A stretch of 53,029 nt of DNA from contig JAQCBZ010000010.1 in NCBI GenBank assembly GCA_027621355.1, positions 1-53,029 on the forward strand, in the 5' to 3' direction. The translations under genes were made by a program, and so were the position numbers. The stretch's first letter is position 1, and every line of letters starts with the position of its first letter. Positions 36,766 through 53,029 of this stretch are shown here, piece by piece. The DNA comes from Bacteroidota bacterium (GTDB lineage: Bacteria; Bacteroidota; Rhodothermia; Balneolales; Balneolaceae). The notes beneath the pieces were generated by a model, which was not told the DNA's origin, searched no databases, and was given only the letters and a program-made list of their open reading frames with translations.

Positions 36766-38556
36766 TCATGCACCGCTTTTTTGTGTTGGTGACCACACTT
36801 CGTATATCTCTCGGAACAGCTCCATATTGATTTCGATGTCAGCTTCCCTTCTTAGTGAATCGACTTCACCTCGGATAGCTTGGTAGACTTTATATGAACG
36901 TTCCAGATCTGACACATTAGTCGAGATGCCCACCTCCTCTATACTACGCTGCTCTACATTCAATACAAAGTACCCTTGATCTGCTGTATAGGAAACCGTA
37001 GGAGTTTGAGGCACACTCTTCAAAACAAGGTTGTAATCAGACTCGTTTTTATCCATGACACCTGACGCAGGTGATGTATAACCATCCATTGTGGCAGGAT
37101 CTGCGCCTTCAGAAAGGCGCTGCACAATCTTCTGTGCTTCATCTAAACTACCCGCATTCACTTTCCAATACGCTGCCTTCAGTACAATGTCTTTAGAGGA
37201 TGTCAAGCGTTCACGAAAGGTTTCTGGAACCTGCACCGCTTGTGTATCAAGTACAGCCTCCATTGTGAGTTGATACTGCTGAAGTTGTGAAAGAATGTCT
37301 GTAGCACGTAATTCTAATGCTTTTTTTACTCGTTGATCTTGAGCATAATCCTCACTCAAAGCCTTATCTAATAATACTTGATTTCTCATACCCCTTCCTA
37401 CCGATGCACCTATGCGAATTTTCGACTCTTGGAAAGACAGGTAAGGAAGCCAGTCTATATATTGTCCAAACGTAAAGACGCTTGGAGATTCATCAATGGT
37501 ATAGGTCGCCAACACTAGGTCTTGGTCTAATTGATTTGCTAATGAACTCACTCGACTATCTGTCCAATTACGCTCCTCAGATTCTAATAAAGGCTCTTCA
37601 TTGATCATCGCATCACTGTCAAGATCATTAATCGCATTTTGAAGTTGCAAGAGATTCTCACGATTAACCTCAACATCAAGTTGATTCATTAGATTATATA
37701 CAAACTCGCTCGATACTAGCCTCTGTCTTCTTAGTCTAAGCTGACTCTCTACTCCTTGTTTGCGGTATTGAAAATCATCCTCTGTAAGCAAGGCAGGGAA
37801 TTCTACTCGTTCGGCAAAAAGAATATGGTATCCTAGTCGACTACGTATAAGTTCAGTATAAGTACCCTGGGGGATAGAATATGCAGCCTCAGCCACATTA
37901 TCATCCACTCCGAAGTAACTAATTGGACCCAGATAACCTGCTAGTGAATCATAGGAGGTTGTCTCATAGAATTGATTGGCGACGTCCACAAATGACTCCC
38001 CAGTCTCCAACGCCTGCATTGCACTGTCAAGATCAGCTGGATCCCGTGAAAACAACTGCCTTATGTAAACTTTACGCTGTCTTTTTGCATAAGCAAGACG
38101 AATTTCATCCTCCGTAAGAGGGTCAATTTCTTGCTCCATCTGATCTATAAAATATACATCAATGATGGATTTTCGCTCTTGATGCTCTACTGCTGAGCGA
38201 TATATTTCATGGTCTAGCAAGCCATTTGCTTCAGCTGATTGTGATAAAAGGATATCATCAATCATTTTATTTAGATGAGCATTCCTTTCGGACTTACTAT
38301 CATGTCGACCTGTTGCAATGAGGTGTTCTACGTATGATTTCTCAAAATCATACACAGTCCGCTCAATCCTATTCACCTCAAAAAGGACTTGATAGTCCCT
38401 ACTTTCTGTTTCCTCTTTGAGTGCGCATCCACCCAAAGCAAATAGCATGACACCCAGTAGTAAAGGTTGGACGATTCTGCCTGATTTAATGGATTGGCGG
38501 TTGATAACTCTAACTTCTTTGAATAAAGCTACCTGCTTTCGCAGAAAGACACTCAT
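36766..38556 (-). CDS. Lipoprotein PpiC/SurA-type peptidyl-prolyl isomerase
   Basis: 596 residues from the ATG at 38556, which overlaps the PorV-like stop by one base (TGATG). A long basic N-region leads to a lipobox (FALGGC, Cys44). A parvulin domain sits near residues 165-265: KVYIRQLFSRDP, SFVDVANQFYE, GYLGPISYFG and LGYHILFAERVEF. A second, poorly conserved half may be a degenerate repeat. It probably chaperones outer-membrane or exported proteins, and the coupling to the barrel gene suggests those clients. It is last in the minus-strand operon. Confidence 0.85.
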   Translation of the reverse strand: MSVFLRKQVALFKEVRVINRQSIKSGRIVQPLLLGVMLFALGGCALKEETESRDYQVLFEVNRIERTVYDFEKSYVEHLIATGRHDSKSERNAHLNKMIDDILLSQSAEANGLLDHEIYRSAVEHQERKSIIDVYFIDQMEQEIDPLTEDEIRLAYAKRQRKVYIRQLFSRDPADLDSAMQALETGESFVDVANQFYETTSYDSLAGYLGPISYFGVDDNVAEAAYSIPQGTYTELIRSRLGYHILFAERVEFPALLTEDDFQYRKQGVESQLRLRRQRLVSSEFVYNLMNQLDVEVNRENLLQLQNAINDLDSDAMINEEPLLESEERNWTDSRVSSLANQLDQDLVLATYTIDESPSVFTFGQYIDWLPYLSFQESKIRIGASVGRGMRNQVLLDKALSEDYAQDQRVKKALELRATDILSQLQQYQLTMEAVLDTQAVQVPETFRERLTSSKDIVLKAAYWKVNAGSLDEAQKIVQRLSEGADPATMDGYTSPASGVMDKNESDYNLVLKSVPQTPTVSYTADQGYFVLNVEQRSIEEVGISTNVSDLERSYKVYQAIRGEVDSLRREADIEINMELFREIYEVWSPTQKSGA

Positions 38557-39614
38557 CAATAATAGAGTTTGATATCAATAGTAGAGGTTTGACCCAGGTA
38601 TTGAAAGGGAACATGAGAGAAGTCTACTCCAATGGCAATTCCCGAAGAAGAGCGTAGAGTAAAACCAGCACCATAGGTTAAATGGGAATCTACGTTATCC
38701 CCCAAAAAAAGATCTCGGTATCCACCTCGCAAATGCAACTCGACCGTATTCGTCAAATAGCTAAGTTGTGTGCCAGAGTCAAGATTAATCAGATTGTCAT
38801 TGGTCTGCTGGACCTCACTAAGGAGAAGAAACTCAAAATTATCCCTTTTAATTGCTGGTAACATAAATCCAAATCTGAATGAAAGGGGCAATTCCCAACT
38901 ATTCACTTTGACATTACTAATAATACCGTCATTATTCCCCTCACTAGTCGGATCCAAATCTACATAGGCTTCTGTATTTATACCTCGCATGGTCATATCC
39001 TGTCCAAAATTGGTAATAGAAGCTCCAAGTGTAAGGCCATTTAAATACTCAGTCTTGAGAAGGAAACCCATGTCAATAGCAACAGCTTCTGCTACCATAT
39101 CATAGATCTTTTGCTGAACATACTTCACTGTAGTCCCAAAATGGAATGATTCTGTGAGGTTTTGTGCGTATGTGAGACCCAAGCTCAGGTCATGTGAACC
39201 AAATGTGGCCCCTGTCCCTTCTTGCATTTCTACCGTACGTACATCCATGCGTCCGTAATCGATATAGTTAAGACCTATACCAATACTTTGACCCTCTTTC
39301 TTACCTACTGGAATAACGATACCGGTCCCATAAATATTCACATCTACGAAATACTCACTTATGCTTATAAATGTAGATGCATATGAATCACCCTCATTAC
39401 GAACGGATATTCCAGCAGGATTCCAGAATAGGGCTTCAGCACCAGATACGTATACAGTATTGGCATGACCTAAGGATGTTCCCTTAGCACCAACTCCCAA
39501 TGTCAAAAAGGGAGCCGCCGTTGTAGCCACCCTACTCTCTTGTCCCAACTGTGCTTTTAGAGAGCTTGTAGAGACTAGTAGCACTACAAGTGTGAAAATG
39601 ATTTTGAGTTGCAT
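38556..39614 (-). CDS. PorV/PorQ-family outer-membrane protein
   Basis: 352 residues. Signal peptide (cleavage near LKA-Q, residue 21), then the PorV/PorQ start AAPFLTLGVGAKGTSLGHAN and GAEALFWNPAGIS, and a FadL-like barrel ending in IDIKLYY. PorV shuttles cargo in the type IX secretion system, and family members also serve as partners of secreted proteins. This one sits between a large secreted protein and a lipoprotein isomerase and may be dedicated to them, which is inference. It starts 37 nt after the preceding gene. Confidence 0.85.
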   Translation of the reverse strand: MQLKIIFTLVVLLVSTSSLKAQLGQESRVATTAAPFLTLGVGAKGTSLGHANTVYVSGAEALFWNPAGISVRNEGDSYASTFISISEYFVDVNIYGTGIVIPVGKKEGQSIGIGLNYIDYGRMDVRTVEMQEGTGATFGSHDLSLGLTYAQNLTESFHFGTTVKYVQQKIYDMVAEAVAIDMGFLLKTEYLNGLTLGASITNFGQDMTMRGINTEAYVDLDPTSEGNNDGIISNVKVNSWELPLSFRFGFMLPAIKRDNFEFLLLSEVQQTNDNLINLDSGTQLSYLTNTVELHLRGGYRDLFLGDNVDSHLTYGAGFTLRSSSGIAIGVDFSHVPFQYLGQTSTIDIKLYY

Positions 39615-39651
39615 ATTCGATTGTTTGAAAGTTATTCCCTAACAGACACAG

Positions 39652-42600
39652 CTACTTGATGATTGCAAATTTATCCATGTACTCTCCCACTCCCGGCGCT
39701 TTTACATGGTAGAAATAGATTCCATATGCGACATCTTCACTATCATCGGAACGAAGATCCCAAGATGCTGATCCATCATCGAATCCACCCTCGTGTTCTA
39801 TCGTTCGGACTAGCTCTCCACGCACATTAAAAATTCTAATTGTACAAGATTTAGGTAGGTTAAAAAATTCGATGCGTCTTTCACCTCGTCCTATAGATCC
39901 ACTCTGACGTTCCCAAGATGCTGCTCCTAGATATGGGTTTGGAGCTACATAAATATCTTCCAAGGAACCTGCAGCCACGTTATCATCAATAACCTGCTTA
40001 CGCATGGTGAACTGGAAAATATCATCGCGGCCAAAGGGTCTTGTTGTTGATATTCTAAATTTATCACCTGCTGACGGATTAATGTCTTGTGTGCTTCCAT
40101 TATCCAAAATATTAATCATGAAACGGTACTTAACTCGATTCCTTTCATCACGCTCGGCAAGAAATAGTGCATCTCCAGAATTCAATGCATCATTGTCATC
40201 TCTGTCTAGAATGAACAGATCTGCCTGCTCTCCAGTGATTAGATTTCGAGCAAATATCGGGATCGGAAATCGACTAAATCCGCTTCCAAAAATCAACGGT
40301 GGTCGGTATGTACTATCTGCAGCATTTACGAAGTATACTTCGTAGTCGTGATCAGTTCTAATAAAGTTCGTCGGATCTCCATCTCTATCTGGGGTGACTG
40401 CTAGTCTCCAATTCGTGGAGTATCCATCCAATTGTGATGGGTCTAGATCAAATAACTCATTTACTTCGCCTTCGTTAGACACCCATCCTGTTTTGTTGAG
40501 AATAATATTTCCAGGATCATCATTCATGAAATTGACAATGAAGCCGTCCACGATTTTTGAAGACCTTTCGAATACATCAGACTCAGCAAGGACGTCCCCA
40601 CCAGACTCACGAATGATATAACCCGTTGTTTGACGCTGTACACCAATGGAAGAAGCTGAGTCTGTAAACGCAACTTCATATAGTTTAGATTCATCTACCA
40701 TATCCTCCACTGCAATTGATATCGTGGCATACCCTGTCCCAGTTCCTTGTGTAACCTTCGTCAAATCTGATGTGCTAGCACCTCCGATATAACCCGCAGG
40801 TTTGGTCGTTGGAATCACTACAGCTGCATTTTGAGAGGTTCCCACTACTGCTCCTGCCCCATCTACACTGATTCTAAATGTATTTTCTTGTGGATCTATC
40901 CCAGGATCATCTCCACCACTAGACGGGATTCCTCTGTCATATGCAACCAATGCGTAATAGTAAAGCTTCCCATTTGTGACATCATTATCCACATAGTAAA
41001 ACTCTAGACCAGAGTCATTTCCAAGATTGTATACTGCCTCTCCACCCAGCACTGGAATTGGACCTTTGAGACCATTATTTAAATCCCACTGGGCTAGTGG
41101 CTTGTAGAACGTAGGTGTGCCATTGACGTCTGAGATTGTGCGTGCATCACTTAACAGATTATCAGTTCCTTTGTAGAGTCTGTATCCCTCGAAATCAAAA
41201 TCTTGCAAAAATCGGTCAAAGCTATCCAGTGACAAATTATCCCATGATAGTACGACTTGGCCATCACCTGGAACAGCCGTGAGAGTAGGCATTATTGGAG
41301 GCTGCGCAAAATTGTAGTCTGAGTTATATATATTTTGAACCGTTCTTCGATTTTTGAAGAAATCCTGTTCATCGTTTCCAAATATCCAAGCAGTGGAGAA
41401 GAAATCTGTCGATTTGGCATCCTTCTTGTCCTCAGAAAACAGTTCCACTTCTCCTGACGTAAATAGAACAAATGGTTCATTAGCAACGACCGTAGGAGGC
41501 TCAACATAATCGGGATTTGAGAATAGCGTAGTCTCAATTCTTTCAAACATCCAATTATCATCGCGTAGATTGTCACCACTTTCATAAAATGGACGAGTAT
41601 TCAGATCAAATCCTGTTAAACCAATTTGATCAGATTCATCGACATCAAGTTCATTGTAGTTTGGCTCCCCGTTTGTGGGCATGCCATCTCCTTCCCCTTT
41701 GTCAGGTCCAGGATAGTTAAGATCAAATGGGCTCAGTCCATCCGCTCCAACATCGTTATTGAGTGCTTCACCAACATCCCAAATTCCATTTTCATTGGTA
41801 TCGGAAAAGCCAATCCAGTCCATATTTTCATCTGTTGTGAACCAAATTCCGGCTTTGTAAGCAGGGCGCTGCTCAATAGATTCTCCATAAAATAGCTCAA
41901 ACTGGTCTGCATCGTAGTTTGCTACGACATATGATTCAATTTGCGCTGGAGATGTAAGAACTTGGTAATCCTCACGAAATCGGGATTCGTCCGTAATTCC
42001 ATCTTGGTCATCGTCTAGTTCATTTACGTCATTTGCAGGCGATTCCAGAAATGCAAACCCTGCATAACCTAGTTCATATCGTGACTCCCCTGCATTGGTT
42101 GGATCTCCAAGACCATCAGAATCCCAGCCATATACCACATCCAAAAAGGGATCATATGAAGCATTATCATCTTGCTCATCCTGCCCCAAACCATAGTCGA
42201 CAATCTGCGAGAAAAATAGTCGGGTTTGATCTTGTTCACTTTTATTCGTAATTCGGTAGATAATAAACATTGCATCTTCGGCTAAGACATTGGCCCACTG
42301 GAACAACCGAATCTGTGTCTGCATCCCCAGTCCGCCCATCGTTGGATCTTTTAAAGGGCTAGGATAATACACTCCAAGATTAGAATGAGGGCCCTCTGTT
42401 TCAATGCCCACCGCATATTCGAGGTCTGAAAAATCATCCATAACATAATAGGATTCCTGATCCGAACTTGGAAAACGGCCATCACGACCATTCCATGTCC
42501 CCGGCCAACCACTATCATCTTCTTCTAGTCGGTCTGGCCAAAAATTAGGCCAACTTTCCTCATCATTTGAAAGAGCAGGTACTGGAGCAGAGCCTAGTGT

Positions 42601-43086
42601 AATAGGGTCGATGCGATTGGGATTGTTAAAACCTGGAAGTGGAAGCCAGCCCCATAGATTACCTGAGTAAGGGCTTGTCCTTGCACCCGCCTCTCTATAA
42701 TTGATGATCACGGGATTGAGTGTAACGTCTGGCCTAAAATTTGGATCACTAATGATCGAAACATAGTCTTCGAAGGTCGCTACTCGATCCGGTGATACTC
42801 CATCCACATACGCTGAGACAAGAACACCGATACCATCAATATGACGACCACCTACACCACGAGGCCAAACCCCCCAAGGGAGGTCATTCCATCTTGATAG
42901 TTCACCATGATTTCGAAAATTAGTTTCTATCAGATTACCACTAATCACACCTCTGGCGATATTATCAAATTCACCTCTATAAACAACTCCATCAAGAGAA
43001 TCAGGAATAGTCTGTTGACCAAAAACAGACCCATGTGGTGCAAGTACAAGTAGGAAAAGTACTGGCGTAAATAATTGCTTAATCAT
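39652..43086 (-). CDS. Large secreted protein with Fn3-like and C-terminal sorting domain
   Basis: 1144 residues. Signal peptide (cleavage near VFG-QQ). The first 550 residues are an unassigned, Asp/Asn-rich region with many calcium-binding-like DxDxDG stretches (ELDDDQDGITDES, SDTNENGIWDVGE). An Fn3-like segment follows (about 605-760: LTAVPGDGQVVLSWD, YYYALVAYDRG), then more beta-rich sequence, and a C-terminal Ig-like sorting domain (YVAPNPYLG, IRIFNVRGELVRTIEH, YGIYFYHVK). It lies 14 nt after the TonB receptor, where SusD is found in Bacteroidota, and may be the surface partner of that receptor, but it has no SusD features. Confidence 0.82.
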   Translation of the reverse strand: MIKQLFTPVLFLLVLAPHGSVFGQQTIPDSLDGVVYRGEFDNIARGVISGNLIETNFRNHGELSRWNDLPWGVWPRGVGGRHIDGIGVLVSAYVDGVSPDRVATFEDYVSIISDPNFRPDVTLNPVIINYREAGARTSPYSGNLWGWLPLPGFNNPNRIDPITLGSAPVPALSNDEESWPNFWPDRLEEDDSGWPGTWNGRDGRFPSSDQESYYVMDDFSDLEYAVGIETEGPHSNLGVYYPSPLKDPTMGGLGMQTQIRLFQWANVLAEDAMFIIYRITNKSEQDQTRLFFSQIVDYGLGQDEQDDNASYDPFLDVVYGWDSDGLGDPTNAGESRYELGYAGFAFLESPANDVNELDDDQDGITDESRFREDYQVLTSPAQIESYVVANYDADQFELFYGESIEQRPAYKAGIWFTTDENMDWIGFSDTNENGIWDVGEALNNDVGADGLSPFDLNYPGPDKGEGDGMPTNGEPNYNELDVDESDQIGLTGFDLNTRPFYESGDNLRDDNWMFERIETTLFSNPDYVEPPTVVANEPFVLFTSGEVELFSEDKKDAKSTDFFSTAWIFGNDEQDFFKNRRTVQNIYNSDYNFAQPPIMPTLTAVPGDGQVVLSWDNLSLDSFDRFLQDFDFEGYRLYKGTDNLLSDARTISDVNGTPTFYKPLAQWDLNNGLKGPIPVLGGEAVYNLGNDSGLEFYYVDNDVTNGKLYYYALVAYDRGIPSSGGDDPGIDPQENTFRISVDGAGAVVGTSQNAAVVIPTTKPAGYIGGASTSDLTKVTQGTGTGYATISIAVEDMVDESKLYEVAFTDSASSIGVQRQTTGYIIRESGGDVLAESDVFERSSKIVDGFIVNFMNDDPGNIILNKTGWVSNEGEVNELFDLDPSQLDGYSTNWRLAVTPDRDGDPTNFIRTDHDYEVYFVNAADSTYRPPLIFGSGFSRFPIPIFARNLITGEQADLFILDRDDNDALNSGDALFLAERDERNRVKYRFMINILDNGSTQDINPSAGDKFRISTTRPFGRDDIFQFTMRKQVIDDNVAAGSLEDIYVAPNPYLGAASWERQSGSIGRGERRIEFFNLPKSCTIRIFNVRGELVRTIEHEGGFDDGSASWDLRSDDSEDVAYGIYFYHVKAPGVGEYMDKFAIIK

Positions 43087-43100
43087 TCGTTCAGCCGATA

Positions 43101-45872
43101 TTAGAATTTATAGCTCAAGCCAACCTTAATATTACGAGGAGCACCTCTTCGACTAGGATCAAGGAAAGATTCCTGTAATGTGTTTAGTCCGCCAGGAGTT
43201 GTTCCATTATTCAATAGTCGTTGCAGATCAGTTGACTCATCAGCCAGTCCTGTATCTACATAAATTCCAAAGTGAGGAGCAGTATCAAAGACATTATTGA
43301 CTTGCAAGAACAGCTCAAGATCCATGTCAAGTTTTGGCGGCTTGTAATAAGCGCGCATGTCTGAATTAAACCATGTTGGTGTATCTAGGTTGTTGGGCGT
43401 AAGTGATGTGATATTATCCCGTTCAGATGTATATGGGGTACCTGACTGTAAGCTATTGATTGTTGATAACGTTAATCCAAAATCGCTGTTCCATGTCAGC
43501 GTATTATTAAGAACATTTCTACGATCCCAATTAAGGCGATTTATGCTGATGATTTCCTCTGAGTTTGTAACAAATCGATTAAATCTCTCTTGTGGATTGG
43601 ATGCAGAACCACTGGCAAATTGGAGTGTGTAATCCACAGTCCATGAAAATGGCCCTTGTCCACGCTCAAATAGGGAAAGGGTAAACCCTTTAACCGTGCC
43701 GTAATCGATATTATCGAGCCGTCCAACTGGCACGCCAATGCTTCCTCTAACCGCAGTCTGGCCAGAAAGCTCACGGATATCCTTCGAAAAGATGGTTAAA
43801 TCAATGCCCATACTCTCGGATAGACCTTGTTGGAGCCCCACTTCGAAGTGTAGTGTGCGTTCAGGTTCTAGGTTAGCATTCCCAATGGTATAGCTTCCAG
43901 CACCTTGAGGTCTATCAAATTCATTATTTGTGTATAATAGATTTAGTTGAGGTGTTTGGAAGAACAAACCCGCCGAAAAGCGCATAACGCCTGTCTCTGA
44001 AATTGGAAATGCCACACCTAACCGAGGACTCATTTGAAATGTAGGGTCTGCATCAGCACGATTGGTAACCATTTGACCGGTTTCCGGATCCAGTATTGTT
44101 TCTTCGTTGAATTGAGATAAATCAATCGGTACCACAAAATCGGGCTCAAAATAATCAAAACGTATCCCCGCATTCACGATAAGATTGTCAAACTCTAACT
44201 TCACTTGAGAATATCCCGCTGCCTCCCAAGGGTTGACTTCCAAGCTATAGTTTGCAGCAGGATCGGTTGAACGAAATGCTCTTTGTGTAGCCTGATTCAC
44301 ACTTATCCCGTAATTCTCATTATCAAGGCCATGAAATCGAGCACTAACACCTGTTTTCCACAAAACAGTATTATTGAGTTGATTGGTGTAATCCGCGACA
44401 ATGGTATGTGATTTGGTGATATCCTGACCGGAAAAAAGGTCGTTTCCACCCATTGCAAATGCATAAGCCCCTTGTTGGCTACTTTGAGAGGGTGCTACAT
44501 ATCGCTCATCCAAATCTCCTTGTGCAGAGACGTCATCGTAGAGATAACTTTCACCTTGATCATGAAAGTAGCTGTAAGATATATTGGCATAGGCATTGTC
44601 ACCCATCGTATATCGCAGGCCTAGAATATGGGTTTGATTGGAAAAGTAGTAATTGTTTAGCCCTGCAGGGTTGTACTTGAATTGCTGGTTATAATTGCGA
44701 CCCTCCCCAAACTGATAAAAAAGATTGTAGTCCAATTTAAGTCGGCCACTAAATTCGTAAACAATGGAACTGTTTAGAGAAAGGCGATCTTGTCTATTCA
44801 AAGATTCGAACTCACCCGTACCTGATGCTTGGATTAACCAAGAATCACGATTAGCACCACTTCGGATATTCGTACTCTGCCGATCACTAGGTCTGAAGAG
44901 ATCTCGTCCAATCAGGTGGCCTTCAAATGTCACATAGCGTAATGTACTTTGAATACTCAGTTTATCCTTAATGATTGGGCCGCCAATGGACAATTGATAA
45001 TCTTGGTCCCCAATCAACGGAGAAGCTTCAGTGTAAGTGTAGGTATCATTAGAAAAATCACTTGCACCTAAAAATGTTTTTTGGTCTGTTTCACGAGTTA
45101 CAAACTCGAGTTCGCGCCCACTAACGATACTTCCAGCATACCCAAGAAAGCTTCCAGTCCACTCATTACTTACGCCTTTAGTGACGATATTTACTACTCC
45201 ACTAAGGGCTTGTCCATATTCGGCATTGAAGACTCCACTAATTACCTCTAGTGATGAGACCATGTTTTGCTCAACATCGAATGATGCAGTGTTACTGAAA
45301 GCATTATTTATAGGCACCCCATTCACGAGATAAGCCACTTCGCCAATACGTCCACCTCGAAAGTGACCATCCACTACTCCGGCCTGCTTATTGATGGCTT
45401 CATTGATACTAACGAGGGGTAAAGCTTCAAGTTGTGATGAGGAAATGAACGATGTAGTCGTTGTTCTATCCTTCTCTACAATCGGGCGCTGGGCTGTAAC
45501 AACGACTTCTTGCCCTTCCAGCACAGCTGGTTCAAGCTCTACATCAACAGTCGTGGTTTTATCGACAATCACCTCGACATTCTTTACAATCACTGTTGCG
45601 TAACCAAGATACCGAACTGTGACTGTGTAGATTCCAGGTTCTAAATTGATAATGGAATACTTTCCATCGACATCAGTGACCGCCCCCTTTTCAATACTCT
45701 CTATATAGATTTGGACGCCCGGCATAGTCTGGCCAGTTTCATCGACTACAGTACCTGCTATTTTTCCTTTAGTTCCTGCATATGATGTAGTAATAACATT
45801 TCCAGCATGTGCTGTAGTGACGAACAAAAAAAGTAAAAAGACACTACAAACACTCGAAATTCTATTATCCAT
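43101..45872 (-). CDS. TonB-dependent receptor with carboxypeptidase-regulatory-like domain
   Basis: 923 residues. Signal peptide (about 1-23), an N-terminal carboxypeptidase-regulatory-like beta domain (KIAGTVVDETGQTMPGVQIY, VRYLGYATVIV), a plug with EVVVTAQRPIVEKD and VAYLVNGVPINNAFSN, then a 22-strand barrel ending IKVGLSYKF. It imports a substrate across the outer membrane using TonB energy; the neighbourhood suggests glycan fragments. It is not a canonical SusC by its plug signatures. It lies 77 nt downstream of the CBM protein gene, with a terminator-like hairpin between. Confidence 0.93.
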   Translation of the reverse strand: MDNRISSVCSVFLLFLFVTTAHAGNVITTSYAGTKGKIAGTVVDETGQTMPGVQIYIESIEKGAVTDVDGKYSIINLEPGIYTVTVRYLGYATVIVKNVEVIVDKTTTVDVELEPAVLEGQEVVVTAQRPIVEKDRTTTTSFISSSQLEALPLVSINEAINKQAGVVDGHFRGGRIGEVAYLVNGVPINNAFSNTASFDVEQNMVSSLEVISGVFNAEYGQALSGVVNIVTKGVSNEWTGSFLGYAGSIVSGRELEFVTRETDQKTFLGASDFSNDTYTYTEASPLIGDQDYQLSIGGPIIKDKLSIQSTLRYVTFEGHLIGRDLFRPSDRQSTNIRSGANRDSWLIQASGTGEFESLNRQDRLSLNSSIVYEFSGRLKLDYNLFYQFGEGRNYNQQFKYNPAGLNNYYFSNQTHILGLRYTMGDNAYANISYSYFHDQGESYLYDDVSAQGDLDERYVAPSQSSQQGAYAFAMGGNDLFSGQDITKSHTIVADYTNQLNNTVLWKTGVSARFHGLDNENYGISVNQATQRAFRSTDPAANYSLEVNPWEAAGYSQVKLEFDNLIVNAGIRFDYFEPDFVVPIDLSQFNEETILDPETGQMVTNRADADPTFQMSPRLGVAFPISETGVMRFSAGLFFQTPQLNLLYTNNEFDRPQGAGSYTIGNANLEPERTLHFEVGLQQGLSESMGIDLTIFSKDIRELSGQTAVRGSIGVPVGRLDNIDYGTVKGFTLSLFERGQGPFSWTVDYTLQFASGSASNPQERFNRFVTNSEEIISINRLNWDRRNVLNNTLTWNSDFGLTLSTINSLQSGTPYTSERDNITSLTPNNLDTPTWFNSDMRAYYKPPKLDMDLELFLQVNNVFDTAPHFGIYVDTGLADESTDLQRLLNNGTTPGGLNTLQESFLDPSRRGAPRNIKVGLSYKF

Positions 45873-45888
45873 GGGGTATATATGTTAA

Positions 45889-45924
45889 AATAGGTGTGAC
45901 TTGGATCCACAAGCCACACCTATT
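45889..45924 (-). terminator. Strong hairpin between the CBM protein and TonB receptor genes
   Basis: AATAGGTGTG (45889-45898) and CACACCTATT (45915-45924) form a perfect 10-bp stem, extended inward by CTTG/CAAG after one mismatch. On the minus strand it ends in CTATTTTAA, a short T tract. It lies 25 nt after the CBM protein stop and 16 nt before the receptor start, so it can terminate or stabilise the upstream message and make the two genes unequal. Confidence 0.7.
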
Positions 45925-45949
45925 CAATTTATTCTACAGTACTAAGGAC

Positions 45950-48340
45950 TTACTTGATTAACATCATCCGTCGCGATTGAGAGAATTCAGGAGTATACAG
46001 CTTATAAATGTACATTCCAGACGCCAAGGCAGATGCATCAAATGACTGAGTATGTATACCAGCGGTCATCGGTTGATTTTGAACAAGAGTGGCAACTTTC
46101 TGACCAAGCATGTTGTAAACCTCTAATGTAACATTTTGAGCTGTTGCTAAACTAAATTGAATCGTTGTCGTTGGGTTAAATGGATTCGGATAGTTCTGCT
46201 TTAGCTCGAAACTTGATGGCATTGGTGTCGGTTCATTGGATGTATATGTAGCTTCTGATCCCACCATAGCAACAACTTCCCACTCAGATGGAGTGTTCCA
46301 CCACTGAGATGTGCTCTTGGAAGACCATGCGTACTGCGCATCTCGACTGGTTCCATCATTATCATTGACAGCTAACTGAAAAGGTATGGTTGTTACTTCA
46401 CTTCCAGTCGGGAAATCAAAGTTCTTAGCTGATGCGTTAACACCACTGAATTCGATCGTACTGAGTATCGTCAGAAGGCGGTACATGCCTGCTTGACTAC
46501 TATCGCCTACTGTCGCTGAATTACCAACAAATTGGTTATATCCAGGATCACCTGCATCACCATCCCAGGCATGAATGTATGGATCAGCACCTACCATATA
46601 GCCAGCACGAAGCTGATAATCAGGCTCATCACCAGACTCAAAACTTCCATGATCTGAGCCAGTTATTATGGATTGGGGTGAATATGAACCAATTCCGCCT
46701 TCCCATGAATCAAAGTTCCAACCACCACCACCATTTGTTGCATTATTGGCAGGTACAATTATGTCATCCATAATCTCAGCATAGAATATCATGAGATCAG
46801 ATCCGGTCGTGTTCTCAATACCAACCCAAAATTTTGCAGATAAATCCTGATTTGAGTCTACGGGGTCTCCACCTTCGACCTGTACGCTCTGAGTATTGAT
46901 TTCAAATGGCGTGTAGTCAGCGGGGAAGAATGATGCTAGAACAGAAGCCTCGGGAACCACTCCATCCTCGACCGCTGAGGCAACGGCATCAACGGCTTCC
47001 GCACTCAACTCAACGATATAGTTTTCACGCACAGTCATGGATGTGTTGATCATTCCCGTTGTCATATCACTTGGTGAACCAATATCAGATCGCGCCAAAA
47101 CACCATAGTATGCATCAAAATTTTCTACCAAACTTGGATGTGGTGCTTGTATCGAATGAGTAGCTGTGAGTCCCACTGCTGGATCAATTGAAGCTACACG
47201 AGCCCCTCCTGCAACTGTAGAAAATGCTGAGTCAGCAAAATAGACATCGTAAGATGCTGCACCATTGTCAGTTACAGAAATGGTTACAACTCCATTCTCT
47301 GTACTCCACTGAACTTCAGGTGCGTCTGGGACAACGTCAGTTATTCTTGATAGGATAATGTTGTCAACGTAAAAATCCCCAGGTGCGTAATTCACCTCGA
47401 ATCCAAGTTGCATCGCGGGATATGTTTCTTCAATGTTGGTCTCGAATACATAATTTGTCATCTCTGTATCAACCGTCACACGGCCAGTAGATGATTCAGG
47501 GAAGTAACGAGCCCATCCACCGCCGATCTCTCCAAAGAAGAGATGAACCAATTGGCTACCCTCAGATGTTCGTGCGTCAAAAGAGACTCTGTAAGGTCCA
47601 GCGTATATTGAATCCAGACTCTCTTCACTAAAGACATGCATAGCTTGAACATCATAGGTATTGCCTACACCTGGAATATTGGTAAATGCAAGTTCTCCTT
47701 CCGTAACCGCAATATTAGCTGCACCAGGCGATAGAGACCAAGCAGAATCACCCAAGGCAAAATCACCGTTTATTACGATGTTACTAGATGCTTTTCTAAG
47801 CTGGATATTGTCGATGTACAAATCAGAATCATCGCCAGCCACTTCAAATCCAAGCTTCATGGATTCCCATGTTTCAGTGATGTCAGTTGTAAGCGTGTAA
47901 GTCTTCATTTCACCATCAACCTGAACATCGCCAGTGCCAGATCCGCTAGCGGTATTCCAGTAGCGCTCCCATCCACCACCATTGTGCCCTAAGAAGACGT
48001 GAAAGTTTTTGGAATCATCAGGCGTCATCGCGTCAAATGATAGTTCCCACGTTCCACCTTCTGCAAGAGCTGCAATTTGTTCGGCAGTAAGGACTTGGTA
48101 GCTTTGTAATTCCCACGCGTTTCCTGCAGTATTGACAACGAATTTGAGCGTATCATCATGCGTTACAGTTCCATTAGACCCCTCGATTGTCCATAATGAA
48201 TCTCCGAGTGAAAAATCACCATTTACGATAACATTGTCACCATAATTTGTGTATTGAGCGAAAGCAGTAGTGCTAGCAAGTAAAACAACTGCAACAGTAA
48301 GAGAAGTTTTTAGTAACAGTTTGTATATAGCTTTATTCAT
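45950..48340 (-). CDS. Secreted multi-CBM protein with type IX secretion sorting domain
   Basis: 796 residues. Signal peptide (cleavage near AFA-Q, residue 28). Two successive carbohydrate-binding-like modules (about 33-182 and 185-335) start alike: VIVNGDFSLGDSLWT and IVINGDFALGDSAWS. A beta-sandwich linker follows, then a CBM9-like segment (FQLAVNDNDGTSRDAQYAWS, about 665-690). The end is a textbook type-A sorting domain (QNYPNPFNPTTTIQF, LEVYNMLGQKVATL, ASGMYIYKLYT). No catalytic domain is visible, so it is probably a glycan-binding surface protein. First gene of the operon, divergent from the GH5 gene. Confidence 0.85.
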   Translation of the reverse strand: MNKAIYKLLLKTSLTVAVVLLASTTAFAQYTNYGDNVIVNGDFSLGDSLWTIEGSNGTVTHDDTLKFVVNTAGNAWELQSYQVLTAEQIAALAEGGTWELSFDAMTPDDSKNFHVFLGHNGGGWERYWNTASGSGTGDVQVDGEMKTYTLTTDITETWESMKLGFEVAGDDSDLYIDNIQLRKASSNIVINGDFALGDSAWSLSPGAANIAVTEGELAFTNIPGVGNTYDVQAMHVFSEESLDSIYAGPYRVSFDARTSEGSQLVHLFFGEIGGGWARYFPESSTGRVTVDTEMTNYVFETNIEETYPAMQLGFEVNYAPGDFYVDNIILSRITDVVPDAPEVQWSTENGVVTISVTDNGAASYDVYFADSAFSTVAGGARVASIDPAVGLTATHSIQAPHPSLVENFDAYYGVLARSDIGSPSDMTTGMINTSMTVRENYIVELSAEAVDAVASAVEDGVVPEASVLASFFPADYTPFEINTQSVQVEGGDPVDSNQDLSAKFWVGIENTTGSDLMIFYAEIMDDIIVPANNATNGGGGWNFDSWEGGIGSYSPQSIITGSDHGSFESGDEPDYQLRAGYMVGADPYIHAWDGDAGDPGYNQFVGNSATVGDSSQAGMYRLLTILSTIEFSGVNASAKNFDFPTGSEVTTIPFQLAVNDNDGTSRDAQYAWSSKSTSQWWNTPSEWEVVAMVGSEATYTSNEPTPMPSSFELKQNYPNPFNPTTTIQFSLATAQNVTLEVYNMLGQKVATLVQNQPMTAGIHTQSFDASALASGMYIYKLYTPEFSQSRRMMLIK

Positions 48341-48487
48341 AGTTAATCTGTTTATGTTAATTGAGAAATCTAGAGTTTTTAATGCGACCTATTCCCGCAT
48401 TTCTTTTGTTGAATTGTTCCCGTTCTGGCATTATGAGTTCGATACTAATGCGTAAGAGCTTTTCAACGTAACAATAAGTTAATATGT
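48341..48487. promoter_or_regulatory. Divergent promoter region of the glycan locus
   Basis: 147 nt between the CBM protein and GH5 genes. TATGTTTG (48483-48490) matches the TAnnTTTG element but overlaps the first possible GH5 start codon, so if it is used translation must begin further in. No clear partner element is seen upstream, and nothing convincing is seen for the minus strand. Confidence 0.3.
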
Positions 48488-50266
48488 TTGCAATACCAAC
48501 TACCTAAAACTTCATTCCCTTTGAGAACGATACCAAGCTTACTCGAAAACACCTATCTAAATCTGATAATCATGTCAGTTGTTTTGGGTTGCGAAAGCCC
48601 TACAAGCACAGATCAACCAAAAAACGAAGGGGTGAATGGTTACGCCGATGAGACCTTCTTTCGCGTGGATGGAAAAGACATTTTAAATAGACAGGGTGAC
48701 CCTGTTGTGATCAAGGGCTTTGGTCTAGGCGGCTGGCTACTGCCAGAGGGGTATATGTTCAACATGCCAGGAGGATTTGGCGCAACGGATGTGCGTAATG
48801 AAATTACTGATCTAATAGGAGCAGCAAAAGCAGAGCAGTGGTTTAAGGAGTTTCGAGACAACTATGTGACAGAAGAAGACATTATTGCAATGAAGGAGTG
48901 GGGTGTCGATCATATACGTGTCCCCTTTCATTATGATATTTTCTATGACTTGCAGTCAGGGGCCTTCAAGGAGTCTGGGTTTGAACGGATGGATAATCTT
49001 CTACTATGGTGCAAAAGACATCGGATTGATGTAATCTTTGATATGCACGCTGCCCCTGGAGCTCAGAGCCAAAGTGAGATTTCAGATAGTGATGGGGTTG
49101 CAAGGTTTTGGACCGAAAGTGAAACTTATTGGCCCATAACAATCAAGATATGGGAAGAAATTGCCCGTCGTTACAAAGACGAGACCATCGTAATTGGGTA
49201 TGATATTATCAATGAACCCGTAACGCCCGATGGATACGACGGCAGAGACTTGTTAGAGTTTTACAGTCAAATTGTGCCAGCGATCCGCGAAATTGATCAA
49301 AATCATATTCTATTCATCGAAGGCAATTATTATGCAACCACATTTGATTATTTATATCCTCCTTTCGATGATAATATGGTCTACGCCTTCCATAAATACT
49401 GGAACGAAACCGATCAAGGGACTATCCAGTACCTTTTAAATCTCCGTGATACGTACAATACCCCCCTGTGGCTAGGCGAAACTGGGGAAAACTCCAATGT
49501 TTGGTTCTTTGAAACCAAAGAGCTAGTGGAAAGTTTAGACATTGGATGGAATAAATGGACCCATAAGAAGCTCGAGACTATCACGTCACCCCTTTCTTCA
49601 CCCACTAATCCAAACTATGACAAAGTCGTAAACTATTGGAAGGGTAATGGACCTAGACCGTCTGCTCAAGAAGCTGAACAAGGATTGTTTCAGATGGCCA
49701 GAGATTTAGCCATTGAGAAAACCACACTTAGACCTGATGTGCTTGCCGCATGGTTTTCTCCAACATACAACTCCACCAATGAAGCCTTTACAGAGATCGA
49801 GATTCCTGGAAATATTTTTGCTGTGCATTATGATATTGGAAACCAGGGTGTCTCCTATTATGATACTGAGTACAAACAAGTGAGTAGTGACGACGATCAA
49901 AATGTTTGGAATCGTGGATGGTCCTTTCGCAATGATGGAGTCGATATCGAAGAGTGTAGCGACCCCGCTGTAGACTATAATGTAGGATGGATCGAGACTG
50001 GAGAATGGCTAGAGTATACAGTTCAAGTCACGCAGACAGGCACCTATAATGTTCGTGCACGTGTTGCTTCAAATGGCAGTGGCCGCATGCGGATTAAGGT
50101 GAATAACAAACCTATCGGGAGTGACCAAGACATTCCCAACACCGGTGGATATCAAAGCTGGGCCCAAGTTAATTTTGGTAATGAATCTTTTACTCAAGGT
50201 GAAGCACTTATTCGGGTGGAGATACTGGAAGGTGACTTCAATTTTAGCATGATCACCATAGAGTAA
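48488..50266 (+). CDS. GH5-family glycoside hydrolase lipoprotein with CBM6
   Basis: 592 residues from the first possible start (TTG 48488). A second TTG at 48521 would give a tidier lipoprotein signal; the first ATG (48572) would leave only six residues before Cys. The lipobox is VVLGC (Cys35). The GH5 barrel spans about 55-440 with the acid/base Glu243 (YDIINEP) and nucleophile Glu331 (LWLGETGEN). GFGLGGWLLPEGYM recalls GH5 beta-1,3-glucanases, so laminarin-like substrates are plausible. A CBM6 module (about 455-592: GWIETGEWLEYTVQV, YNVRARVAS) ends the protein. It lies 39 nt before the ThuA-type gene. Confidence 0.87.
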   Translation: MQYQLPKTSFPLRTIPSLLENTYLNLIIMSVVLGCESPTSTDQPKNEGVNGYADETFFRVDGKDILNRQGDPVVIKGFGLGGWLLPEGYMFNMPGGFGATDVRNEITDLIGAAKAEQWFKEFRDNYVTEEDIIAMKEWGVDHIRVPFHYDIFYDLQSGAFKESGFERMDNLLLWCKRHRIDVIFDMHAAPGAQSQSEISDSDGVARFWTESETYWPITIKIWEEIARRYKDETIVIGYDIINEPVTPDGYDGRDLLEFYSQIVPAIREIDQNHILFIEGNYYATTFDYLYPPFDDNMVYAFHKYWNETDQGTIQYLLNLRDTYNTPLWLGETGENSNVWFFETKELVESLDIGWNKWTHKKLETITSPLSSPTNPNYDKVVNYWKGNGPRPSAQEAEQGLFQMARDLAIEKTTLRPDVLAAWFSPTYNSTNEAFTEIEIPGNIFAVHYDIGNQGVSYYDTEYKQVSSDDDQNVWNRGWSFRNDGVDIEECSDPAVDYNVGWIETGEWLEYTVQVTQTGTYNVRARVASNGSGRMRIKVNNKPIGSDQDIPNTGGYQSWAQVNFGNESFTQGEALIRVEILEGDFNFSMITIE

Positions 50267-50305
50267 ATGACCCATTAAGGTCGATTAAATCTTAAAGTTT
50301 AGTTT

Positions 50306-53029
50306 ATGAGAGTCTATACAAACCTGGGGGTTCTTTGCATACTTTTTGCTACAGCCGTCTGCGCACACGCACAAACGCCCGTATTGTCTCGTCAAGTCCA
50401 TTCATTCGATGTCCTCGTTTTTTCCAAGACTGCAGGGTATCGTCATGCATCCATTGAAGAAGGGATTGAGGCGATTCGACAACTTGGACTAGACAATGGA
50501 TTTAATGTCGATGCAACCGAGGACGCATCTGCATTTACGGCTGAAAACCTTCAGAATTATGCAGCGGTAATATTTCTGAGTACAACTGGAGACGTACTAA
50601 ACCTTGAACAACAATCTGCTTTTGAAGCCTATATCCAGCAAGGTGGTGGATTTGTAGGAATTCACGCAGCTTCCGATACAGAATATAGTTGGCCTTGGTA
50701 CGGGGAGTTGGTAGGGGCATATTTTGACAGCCATCCCGAAATTCAGCAAGCAACGATAGAAGTGGCTGATCGTGTGCATCCATCTACTTCTCACTTACCA
50801 GAGTATTGGATTCGTACAGATGAGTGGTACAATTATAATGAAAACCCCAGGGGTGATGTTCATGTATTAGCTACACTTGACGAATCAACGTATTCTGGCG
50901 GCTCCATGGGGCACGATCACCCTATTGCTTGGATGCATGAATTTGAAGGGGGACGATCATGGTATACAGGTGGTGGTCATACCGAAGAGTCTTTTAGTGA
51001 ACCTGATTTCTTGCAGCACGTTCTTGGCGGCATTTTTTATGCGTCTGGAGATGTAAAAGGAGAGTTTGACGCAACGAGTGAACAGCAATATCAAGTTACT
51101 GTCATTAAGGAGAATCCAGCCTACCCTATGGCCTTGGCTGTACTCCCCTCCTACAATGTATTATACATCGAGCGGCAAGGTAAGATGCATCTTTGGAATT
51201 CCTCGACTGGTCTTATCTCCACTGCAGCCGAATTTGATGTCGATAGTGGACGTGAAGATGGGTTATTAGGTATTGTATTGGATCCGAATTTTGAGATCAA
51301 CTCCTATATCTATGTTTTCTATTCGCCTCGAACGGTAGAGGAGCAAAGAGTCTCTAGATTTACTTTTGATGGTATTCGTCTAGACATGGACTCAGAAAAT
51401 ATCCTTCTTCAGATTCCTGTTCAGCGATCGCAATGTTGCCACTCAGGCGGTGACCTTGAGTTTGGTCCCAATGGTGACCTATACATCACTACAGGGGATA
51501 ATGTGAATCCCTTTGAATCTGATGGATTTTCCCCCATTGACGAGCGCCCTGGTAGAGAGTATTACGATGCTCAGGGTACGTCAGGAAACACCATGGATTT
51601 GCGGGGGAAAATTCTACGTATTCGACCCGAAGAAGATGGCACCTACTCTATACCTGAGGGAAATCTATTTACTAATTCGGACGAAGGGCTTCCTGAAGTT
51701 TATGTAATGGGTACTCGAAATCCTTTCCGAATGGCAGTGGACAAACGGAATGGTGAGCTTTACTGGGGAGATGTGGGACCCGATGCTGGAGGCGATAATG
51801 TGGCTAGAGGACCCAAAGGTTACGATGAATTTAATCGGACGACTCAGGCTGGTAATTTTGGTTGGCCTATGTGCATAGCCGAAAATCTTCCATACCGACA
51901 ATATGATTTTGCAACGGGCACGACAGGAGCCGCATTTAATTGCGATTCACCTGTAAACTCATCACCTAATAACACAGGTGCTGACTCTCTTCCACCTGCT
52001 ATTCCAGCATGGATAGCCTATACCTATGGGGTGACAGAAAAATGGCCGCAACTGGGTGCTGGACAGAGAACTGCAATCGCTGGGGATATCTTTTACTATG
52101 ATGATACCTTAGAAGAGACTGGAAGTCTTCCAGAATATTTTGATGGGTCACTTTTTATTCTAGAATGGACACGTAATTGGATCAAAGAGGTTCGCTTCAA
52201 TGAAGATGGAGAGCTTTTACAGATTAATTCATTCCTAGAGGATCTAACTCTTAATCGACCCATTGACATGCAAATTGGCCCTGATGGAGCAATTTATATC
52301 ATAGAATGGGGTACAGGGTTTTTTGAGGAAAACGCTGATGATCGAATTATTAAAATTGAGTTTGCTCAAAATCTAGCGAATCGCGTGCCCACCGCTCGCG
52401 CTACAGCCGATATCCAAAGTGGAAACGCTCCGTTGAACGTAACGTTTAGTGGCGAGACTTCCTCTGATCCTGACGTTGGAGATGTATTACGATATTCATG
52501 GGATCTCGATGGAGATGAGGTTGAAGATGCAAATACTGCGACCGTGCAATATACCTATACAACAAATGGTGTCTACCCTGTCACACTTAAAGTCACAGAC
52601 CAAGATGGTGCCATTTCAGTAGATCAGATAGAAATTGTAGTTGGGAATACTACTCCTGAGGTAACGATTCTAGAGCCTGTCAATGGTGGTTTTTATGAAG
52701 ATTTCGATGAAATTGAATACAACGTGGATGTAAAGGATGCCGAACAAGGTAGTATTGGCAATGGGATAGATTGTCAAGATGTCGTGGTAGAACCCTCCAT
52801 AGGACATGATGACCACGCTCACGGAACAGGGCCACGTAATGGTTGTAGAGGCATCTTTACCACAGAAACACATGGAGAAGGTCCAGATAACGTTTTTTAT
52901 GTGTTGGCAGCCACATATGATGATGATGGAGCGGGAGTAGGCGCCTCGCTGCGTGGGAGTGATGGCATCGTGCTGAATATGAAGCGAAAACAAGCCCAAC
53001 ATGCTGTTGAATTGATTGATTTGCAAACT
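50306..53029 (+). CDS. ThuA-sugar dehydrogenase-PKD secreted protein (3' end outside window)
   Basis: 908 codons without a stop, running off the end. Signal peptide (cleavage near AHA-Q). Then a ThuA-like glutamine-amidotransferase-fold domain (about 30-255: DVLVFSKTAGYRHASIEEGI, GGGFVGIHAASDTEY) implicated in disaccharide use, a PQQ-dependent sugar dehydrogenase-type beta-propeller (about 260-690: CCHSGGDLEFGPNGDLYIT, VMGTRNPFRMAVD, GNFGWPMC), and a PKD domain (about 692-778: VTFSGETSSDPD, YSWDLDGD). The following stretch with DDHAHG and cysteines is unassigned. It probably oxidises sugars released nearby. Co-directional with the GH5 gene. Confidence 0.88.
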   Translation, partial: MRVYTNLGVLCILFATAVCAHAQTPVLSRQVHSFDVLVFSKTAGYRHASIEEGIEAIRQLGLDNGFNVDATEDASAFTAENLQNYAAVIFLSTTGDVLNLEQQSAFEAYIQQGGGFVGIHAASDTEYSWPWYGELVGAYFDSHPEIQQATIEVADRVHPSTSHLPEYWIRTDEWYNYNENPRGDVHVLATLDESTYSGGSMGHDHPIAWMHEFEGGRSWYTGGGHTEESFSEPDFLQHVLGGIFYASGDVKGEFDATSEQQYQVTVIKENPAYPMALAVLPSYNVLYIERQGKMHLWNSSTGLISTAAEFDVDSGREDGLLGIVLDPNFEINSYIYVFYSPRTVEEQRVSRFTFDGIRLDMDSENILLQIPVQRSQCCHSGGDLEFGPNGDLYITTGDNVNPFESDGFSPIDERPGREYYDAQGTSGNTMDLRGKILRIRPEEDGTYSIPEGNLFTNSDEGLPEVYVMGTRNPFRMAVDKRNGELYWGDVGPDAGGDNVARGPKGYDEFNRTTQAGNFGWPMCIAENLPYRQYDFATGTTGAAFNCDSPVNSSPNNTGADSLPPAIPAWIAYTYGVTEKWPQLGAGQRTAIAGDIFYYDDTLEETGSLPEYFDGSLFILEWTRNWIKEVRFNEDGELLQINSFLEDLTLNRPIDMQIGPDGAIYIIEWGTGFFEENADDRIIKIEFAQNLANRVPTARATADIQSGNAPLNVTFSGETSSDPDVGDVLRYSWDLDGDEVEDANTATVQYTYTTNGVYPVTLKVTDQDGAISVDQIEIVVGNTTPEVTILEPVNGGFYEDFDEIEYNVDVKDAEQGSIGNGIDCQDVVVEPSIGHDDHAHGTGPRNGCRGIFTTETHGEGPDNVFYVLAATYDDDGAGVGASLRGSDGIVLNMKRKQAQHAVELIDLQT

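Follow-up and report, generated by a model that had tools for sequence, protein, structure and literature searches.

In type IX secretion (T9SS), PorU is kept on PorV and PorZ on PorQ by C-terminal sorting domains (CTDs) that stay uncleaved, the CTD of the SprB-SprF type is thought to be uncleaved as well, and a review has raised the idea that cognate PorV-like barrels shield CTDs from cleavage (PMC10202324). In Rhodothermus marinus, the published alginate PUL comprises tonB, hypA (annotated as 'T9SS type A sorting domain'), hypB ('PorV/PorQ family'), hypC and alginate lyases (PMC9530828), and the xylan PUL Rmar_1067-1081 is tabulated as LacI and RmXyn10A, then a TonB receptor, a hypothetical protein with a CTD and a second hypothetical protein, followed by a separate SusCD pair (PMC6987092). 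Both papers describe the enzymes and label the genes considered here as hypothetical (PMC9530828, PMC6987092). Our search of the open-access literature, with subscription papers and preprints outside its scope, yielded no account of a SusD-free, PorV-linked uptake system; the parts described below belong to known families, and their architecture is without description in the literature searched.

We analysed a stretch of 53,029 nucleotides (the window), contig C53 of a Balneolaceae-like MAG with a genome of 1.51 Mb in 59 contigs (90% complete), and found all seven ORFs of the original prediction at the place and in the orientation given there (Table 1). On the minus strand, the gene of a 796-aa T9SS cargo protein is followed by those of a TonB receptor, a 1144-aa protein, a PorV-like barrel and a parvulin lipoprotein, with operon-like gaps of 77, 14, 37 and -4 bp in this order, the last being a 4-bp overlap between the PorV-like and the parvulin gene, while the GH5-CBM6/35 and ThuA-GSDH-PKD genes are divergent from this operon. 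Profile matches agreed with the families guessed beforehand for the parvulin lipoprotein, the PorV/PorQ barrel, the TonB receptor, the T9SS tail and the GH5-CBM6/35 and ThuA-GSDH-PKD proteins. The parvulin ORF matches PF00639 with 6.4e-7 and carries the lipobox 'LFALGGC', and the GH5-CBM6/35 ORF carries the lipobox 'VVLGC'. A 626-aa protein (window 34832-36712) adjoins the operon on the opposite strand, and its homologues are neighbours of the module in many genomes of Balneolaceae and in some of Rhodothermales.

Table 1 Features of the window with their positions, strand and main supporting evidence.
Feature	Position	Strand	Evidence
PpiC/parvulin-type peptidyl-prolyl isomerase lipoprotein	36766..38559	-	PF00639; PrsA 6e-6
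PorV/PorQ-family (FadL-type) outer-membrane barrel, trio core	38556..39614	-	NF033709 135 bits; PorV 6h3i_F 2e-25
Distinct-subtype C-terminal T9SS sorting domain of the 1144-aa protein, about residues 1045-1144	39652..39954	-	PorV-like gene in operon 95/95
1144-aa secreted surface protein, trio core	39652..43086	-	phylum-wide full-length homologues; SPI signal without lipobox; C-terminus 'DKFAIIK'
N-terminal globular domain of the 1144-aa protein, residues 25-600	41287..43014	-	model pLDDT 91.6, pTM 0.91
TonB-dependent receptor, 923 aa, CarboxypepD_reg + plug + barrel, trio core, not SusC	43101..45872	-	PF00593 1.1e-24
T9SS type A cargo (796 aa), CBM4/9-like N-terminal domains	45950..48340	-	TIGR04183 2.9e-13
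GH5-CBM6/35 lipoprotein, local accessory	48488..50266	+	exo-beta-1,3-glucanases 2e-15 to 2e-18
ThuA-GSDH-PKD protein, cut by window end, local accessory	50306..53029	+	family match

The receptor scored 67.6 bits with the SusC/RagA model TIGR04056, against a cut-off of 368, and lacks the TIGR04057 signature, which places it outside SusC/RagA; its sole match in the PDB by sequence is FepA. No SusD match was obtained among the seven proteins or in any locus with the same receptor, large protein and barrel (hereafter the trio), so that a SusD/RagB lipoprotein is missing there, as had been stated for the locus. SusCD membership was thus ruled out for the receptor, by the SusC model, as well as for its partner, which has neither a SusD match nor a lipobox. 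The label 'SusD-less' holds for the locus and does not mean that SusD is replaced in the organism: the genome has three SusD genes at other places, two of them adjoining full-scoring SusC genes (935 and 715 bits, with the signature) and one a fragmentary SusC. The 796-aa protein, which had been called a multi-CBM cargo, gave a CBM9_1 match of 0.02 that is sub-threshold in the window copy, whereas homologues at the same position among the scanned neighbours match CBM_4_9, down to 4e-20; searched against the PDB, it had no matches. Such a CBM cargo is the conserved upstream gene in the clade of the window and may have a SusE/F-like role.

The recurrence of the gene set across genomes, which had been proposed as a check, was evident at several levels. 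By sequence search, the 1144-aa protein was matched in 70 of 98 relatives, and the contigs with homologues, where named, were mostly Balneolaceae and Rhodothermales MAGs; a profile search matched it in 165 of 296 genomes from across the phylum, about 108 of which gave matches of full-length quality (E < 1e-100), including 53 from outside the class. About 115 stretches were taken around homologues of the large protein and around PorV-like genes, and adjacency was counted for those 78 distinct homologues of the 1144-aa protein that have flanking sequence at either end. In 74 of these, a receptor gene immediately precedes and a PorV-like gene immediately follows, all on one strand, and the gaps have medians of 7 and 8 bp. 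Reading of the exceptions revealed an overlapping PorV ORF overlooked in the first count (L213), a parvulin gene inserted between receptor and cargo (L072) and the order receptor-barrel-cargo-parvulin (L225), so that all three trio genes are kept in 77 of 78 loci, the remaining one (L035) being frameshifted. Given this recurrence in 77 of 78 homologous loci, which are statistically non-independent, the trio is not a chance arrangement; it was found in Balneolaceae as well as in families that belong to other classes within the phylum, and is not unusual for its lineage. In L035 (JAGYJQ010000004.1), the receptor, the CBM cargo and the large protein are broken by frameshifts and the G023 match has many stops, by decay or assembly error.

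The parvulin gene is present in the operon in 39 of 78 loci; in the starch clade it precedes the receptor gene, and in the window clade, as in some families from other classes, it follows the barrel gene. The GH5 and ThuA genes, which had been counted as parts of the locus, had to be dropped as parts of the module, because they stand beside it in the closest relatives only (GH5 in L035, L043 and L050, ThuA in L043 and L050, which belong to one genome). Tree distances of 76 trios correlated with 0.94 for receptor and barrel, 0.93 for receptor and cargo and 0.86 for cargo and barrel, values that are inflated by shared species history. Since this history is removed within a genome, we also took 20 within-genome paralogue pairs, which gave 0.90, 0.74 and 0.74, respectively; these values are indicative only, as the pairs of six genomes overlap. 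The genes of receptor, cargo and barrel have mostly descended as sets.

The 1144-aa protein, which occupies the SusD position directly after the receptor gene, has an SPI-type signal without lipobox, as have 73 of 76 homologues, the motif in the three flagged ones being ambiguous or lying inside the signal. With this Sec signal, an end of the '[GD]KFAIIK' type and a genome that encodes SprA (SprA_N 2.8e-86, contig C8), it has the features of a T9SS substrate and is probably exported by the T9SS. Its sorting domain is weak in Pfam and NCBIfam (CHU_C 0.0012, PorZ and PorU tails 0.003 and 0.017), with no match to the type A models TIGR04183/PF18962, and is strongly conserved among homologues. It scores 147 bits with a profile of this special CTD against 32 bits with the generic one, and hence is a subtype of its own, formed by the last ~95 residues with the consensus 'NPYv...E...GRGERRI.F.NLP..CTIRIF...GELV.TL.H....dG...WDL...d...AYGVY.YHV.APGIGE..GKFA.IK'. 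In some trios, a short cargo (about 675-780 aa) shares this CTD with the long cargo and scores little elsewhere on the long-cargo profile.

The full-chain model of the 1144-aa protein has a mean pLDDT of 82.8 and a pTM of 0.69. Because Foldseek with the whole chain against the PDB gave FnIII arrays and PorZ only, we folded the N-domain alone (residues 25-600, 75 sequences), which yielded a model with few helices, a pLDDT of 91.6 and a pTM of 0.91. Its Foldseek matches are weak and partial, with dextran dextrinase at the top (E 3e-4, probability 1.0, TM 0.28), followed by GH94 phosphorylases, GH116 and copper amine oxidases, and no SusD fold was among the matches listed for either the whole chain or the N-domain. 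These matches presumably share a supersandwich (mutarotase-like) beta domain. In sugar enzymes this domain sits beside a catalytic helical (alpha/alpha)6 barrel, and no helical catalytic barrel was seen in the N-domain model. Taken together, the model hints at a carbohydrate-related fold.

The barrel encoded directly downstream belongs to the PorV/PorQ family (NF033709, 135.3 bits against a cut-off of 90), its profile matching the PorV structure 6h3i_F with 2e-25, and is not PorV in the strict sense (NF033710, 59.9 bits against 250); the canonical PorV of this genome is encoded on contig C28, where it adjoins PorU. The same holds more generally, in that the genomes encode one SprA but 6 to 14 PorV-family genes, with the canonical PorV beside PorU and many of the others in trios. 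To compare CTDs and barrels, loci were sampled via the cargo or via the barrel, and for the cargo-chosen loci the presence of a barrel was not built in. A PorV-like gene was present in the same operon for all 95 distinct proteins with the special CTD and enough flank, those with other N-domains included, the barrel gene being adjacent in 91 and separated by the receptor gene and other genes in four. Generic type A tails had no PorV-like gene in 87 of 117 cases, and the rest mainly lie on the far side of the same trio, in addition to PorU. The large protein is therefore always accompanied by its own PorV-like gene, as the original prediction had it; the barrel, called a shuttle there, is more likely a permanent anchor than a shuttle only.

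Stand-alone copies of the N-domain (671-688 aa) were found in two genomes (L086:6964-11047 in G006 and L087:7947-9965 in G033), where they carry a generic type A tail ('NYPNPFNPTT') and lack both a receptor gene and a PorV-like gene in their surroundings; the two genomes share this neighbourhood, with a TamB-like gene close by. This natural domain swap supports the pairing of the special CTD with the barrel. Besides the trios, other CTD proteins are encoded next to barrels of this family. A CTD protein of 392-566 aa is followed by two tandem PorV-family barrels (L130:8466-10103, L154:8448-10025, L149:9370-10548 and L156, the latter on contig C7 of the window's own genome); it has a PorZ-like tail and an F510_1955 glycosylhydrolase-like stretch, is conserved in Balneolaceae, and together with its barrels is possibly the counterpart of PorZ-PorQ. 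Furthermore, a 2382-aa CTD protein with an S-layer glycoprotein match (Kustd1514, E 2.7e-25) lies directly upstream of its own PorV-like barrel in G033 (L132:3873-11021) and may be a T9SS-exported S-layer-like protein.

The genomic context of the module gives a hint to its substrates. Among 65 scanned neighbours of orthologous loci, we found genes for LacI regulators (12-14), GH16 (10), GH3 (4), GH5 (2), GH81 (1), CBM4/9 (6) and T9SS tails (29). One neighbouring GH16 is closest to laminarinases (3azx, 1e-49), the GH81 is closest to endo-beta-1,3-glucanases (1e-129 to 1e-153), and the GH5 of the window matches, among others, exo-beta-1,3-glucanases (2e-15 to 2e-18). The earlier guess at beta-1,3-glucan, made from GH5 motifs, gains strength from these laminarinase-like GH16, GH81 and GH3 enzymes and from the similarity of the GH5, and laminarin or another beta-1,3-glucan is the most likely substrate at the window locus. 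Paralogous trios stand beside GH13 (alpha-amylase), CBM48, CBM20 and LacI genes (starch clade) or beside GH10 (xylan). The sampled neighbourhoods of short-cargo trios had no CAZymes, indicating that not every trio is for glycans and that the module may serve other nutrients.

Genes of the trio can also be traced in the published R. marinus loci. In genome G104, gene lengths match those of the alginate PUL (hypA 2181, hypB 1056 and hypC 1398 nt, among others), a PL6-type lyase is present, hypA carries the special CTD with a score of 48 bits, and hypB reaches 195 bits as a barrel; by these matches the alginate PUL contains a trio whose cargo is of the short type. The hypC product (465 aa; L233:8849-10246, L234:8060-9457), encoded next to the PorV-like gene, has a weak barrel-profile match of 20 bits. 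The gene set of L062 (LacI, receptor, cargo, barrel, CBM protein and GH10) resembles the R. marinus xylan PUL, and its cargo is 52-54% identical to that of the window. A trio and a SusCD pair thus apparently occur in one xylan PUL, suggesting that both types of uptake can operate in parallel. Their coexistence in genomes, and apparently in one PUL, calls for caution against describing the trio as a replacement.

The gene set, its recurrence, the pairing of CTD and barrel, the glycan-related neighbourhoods and the absence of SusD and of a lipobox are, in our judgement, best explained by a SusCD-like uptake complex whose outer partner is delivered by the T9SS and held by its own barrel, like PorU-PorV or PorZ-PorQ, a reading to which we give slightly less than an even chance. 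The module, an outer-membrane one, would combine three products: a TonB-dependent receptor other than SusC, a large protein secreted with an SPI signal, and a PorV-family barrel dedicated to that protein. After export of the large protein through the single T9SS of the cell, the barrel would take over the special CTD at or after the SprA translocon and keep it uncleaved, such that the protein would be held at the surface without a lipid anchor; this retention is suggested by the genomic pairing. The N-domain of ~575 residues would then act as the outer partner of the receptor, as a lid and/or in glycan capture, the job of SusD in SusCD; a contact between the two would be in line with gene position and phylogeny. 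The parvulin lipoprotein might aid the periplasmic folding of large secreted or barrel proteins. Several points speak against this explanation: the module coexists with SusCD and so need not do the job of SusD, PorU could still cleave the special CTD, the N-domain has weak and partial fold matches, the tree correlations are in part due to shared species history, and the short-cargo trios sampled had no CAZymes around them.

Other readings of the same genes have to be weighed. If the PorV-like barrel were a shuttle only, PorU would cut the large protein, which would then be LPS-attached or released, bind glycan and pass it on by proximity, without contact to the receptor. Cleavage is indeed the fate of most type A CTDs and PorV has been described as a shuttle (PMC10202324), and the generic T9SS CBM proteins in the same operons manage without a barrel of their own. 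However, each genome already has a general PorV, so that a dedicated barrel per special CTD suggests retention rather than transit, and gene order binds the large protein to the receptor in 77 of 78 loci; we therefore regard this course as unlikely, albeit with a probability that still counts. The barrel, the surface protein and the parvulin might instead be biogenesis helpers of the receptor. The model for this is the BAM complex of Bacteroidota, in which the surface protein BamH is held by the FadL-family barrel BamG and the lipoprotein BamM adopts a PPI fold (PMC12611786, PMC12578637), resembling the trio with its parvulin lipoprotein, which is encoded in about half of the operons. Yet the other half has no parvulin, and modules grow in number with the types of substrate (starch, xylan, beta-glucan, alginate), in keeping with specific uptake more than with assembly in general. 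Moreover, BamG, BamH and BamM work with BamA in barrel assembly, are not in an operon with a TonB receptor and have lipoproteins as surface subunits, unlike the large protein. This makes a role in receptor assembly improbable.

The large protein could also be a surface enzyme that cleaves or modifies glycans, the trio then being an operon for degradation plus import. Although the weak resemblance of the N-domain fold to supersandwich domains in carbohydrate-active enzymes such as GH94 phosphorylases and GH116 and the FnIII-like stretches, which are common in enzymes, would suit this view, the model gives no sign of an (alpha/alpha)6 barrel, the protein has no CAZyme-like Pfam match, and catalytic enzymes are separately encoded in the same neighbourhoods, leaving little probability for an enzyme. 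Nor do we give much weight to an import of something other than polysaccharides (e.g., protein- or metal-derived nutrients), with the glycoside hydrolases as chance neighbours. Several short-cargo trios without CAZymes nearby and the match of the receptor to FepA, the only one by sequence in the PDB, are in line with it, but the repeated and clade-consistent neighbourhoods with CAZymes and LacI, and the alginate locus, are not.

Returning to the reading that we prefer, of an uptake complex with a barrel-held outer partner, we consider it possible, more tentatively and at less than even probability, that the trio is a second, SusD-independent architecture for TonB-dependent polysaccharide uptake, composed of two barrels and three proteins in all, with a T9SS-secreted partner on a PorV-family barrel, and that it has multiplied and varied according to substrate (laminarin, starch, xylan, alginate) in Balneolota/Rhodothermota as well as in other classes of the phylum. 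In Bacteroidota genomes, glycan uptake is recognised through SusCD: PUL annotation seeks the SusC-SusD pair, and if the trio does the same work, many uptake loci of Balneolota/Rhodothermota and related classes are invisible to it. Type IX secretion would furthermore be tied directly to nutrient import, and many unexplained PorV-family paralogues would gain a role as permanent anchors of CTD proteins. The question is testable in R. marinus, whose alginate locus, and apparently the xylan locus too, carries these genes as 'hypothetical'.

Compared with known systems, the module resembles SusCD in that the gene of a TonB receptor directly precedes that of a surface partner, and in that glycan-binding proteins, glycoside hydrolases and a regulator that responds to sugar are encoded close by. 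It differs in its partner, which is beta-rich, T9SS-tailed, about 1000-1370 aa long and equipped with an SPI signal, whereas SusD is a lipoprotein, in its receptor, which falls short of the SusC model and lacks the signature, and in the additional PorV-family barrel. With SprB-SprF (type B CTD and PorP/SprF barrel) it shares a secreted protein co-encoded with its own barrel; here, in contrast, a PorV/PorQ-family barrel goes with a type A-like CTD, and no link to gliding was seen. As in PorU-PorV and PorZ-PorQ, a CTD-bearing surface protein goes with a FadL-type barrel, its retention being suggested here by genomic pairing. Unlike these pairs, the trio has no sortase or A-LPS function, is present in many paralogous copies per genome, every one of them linked to a TonB receptor, and carries another CTD subtype. 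PorU, in turn, lies directly upstream of the canonical PorV in these genomes, the same order as that of the cargo and the PorV-like gene.
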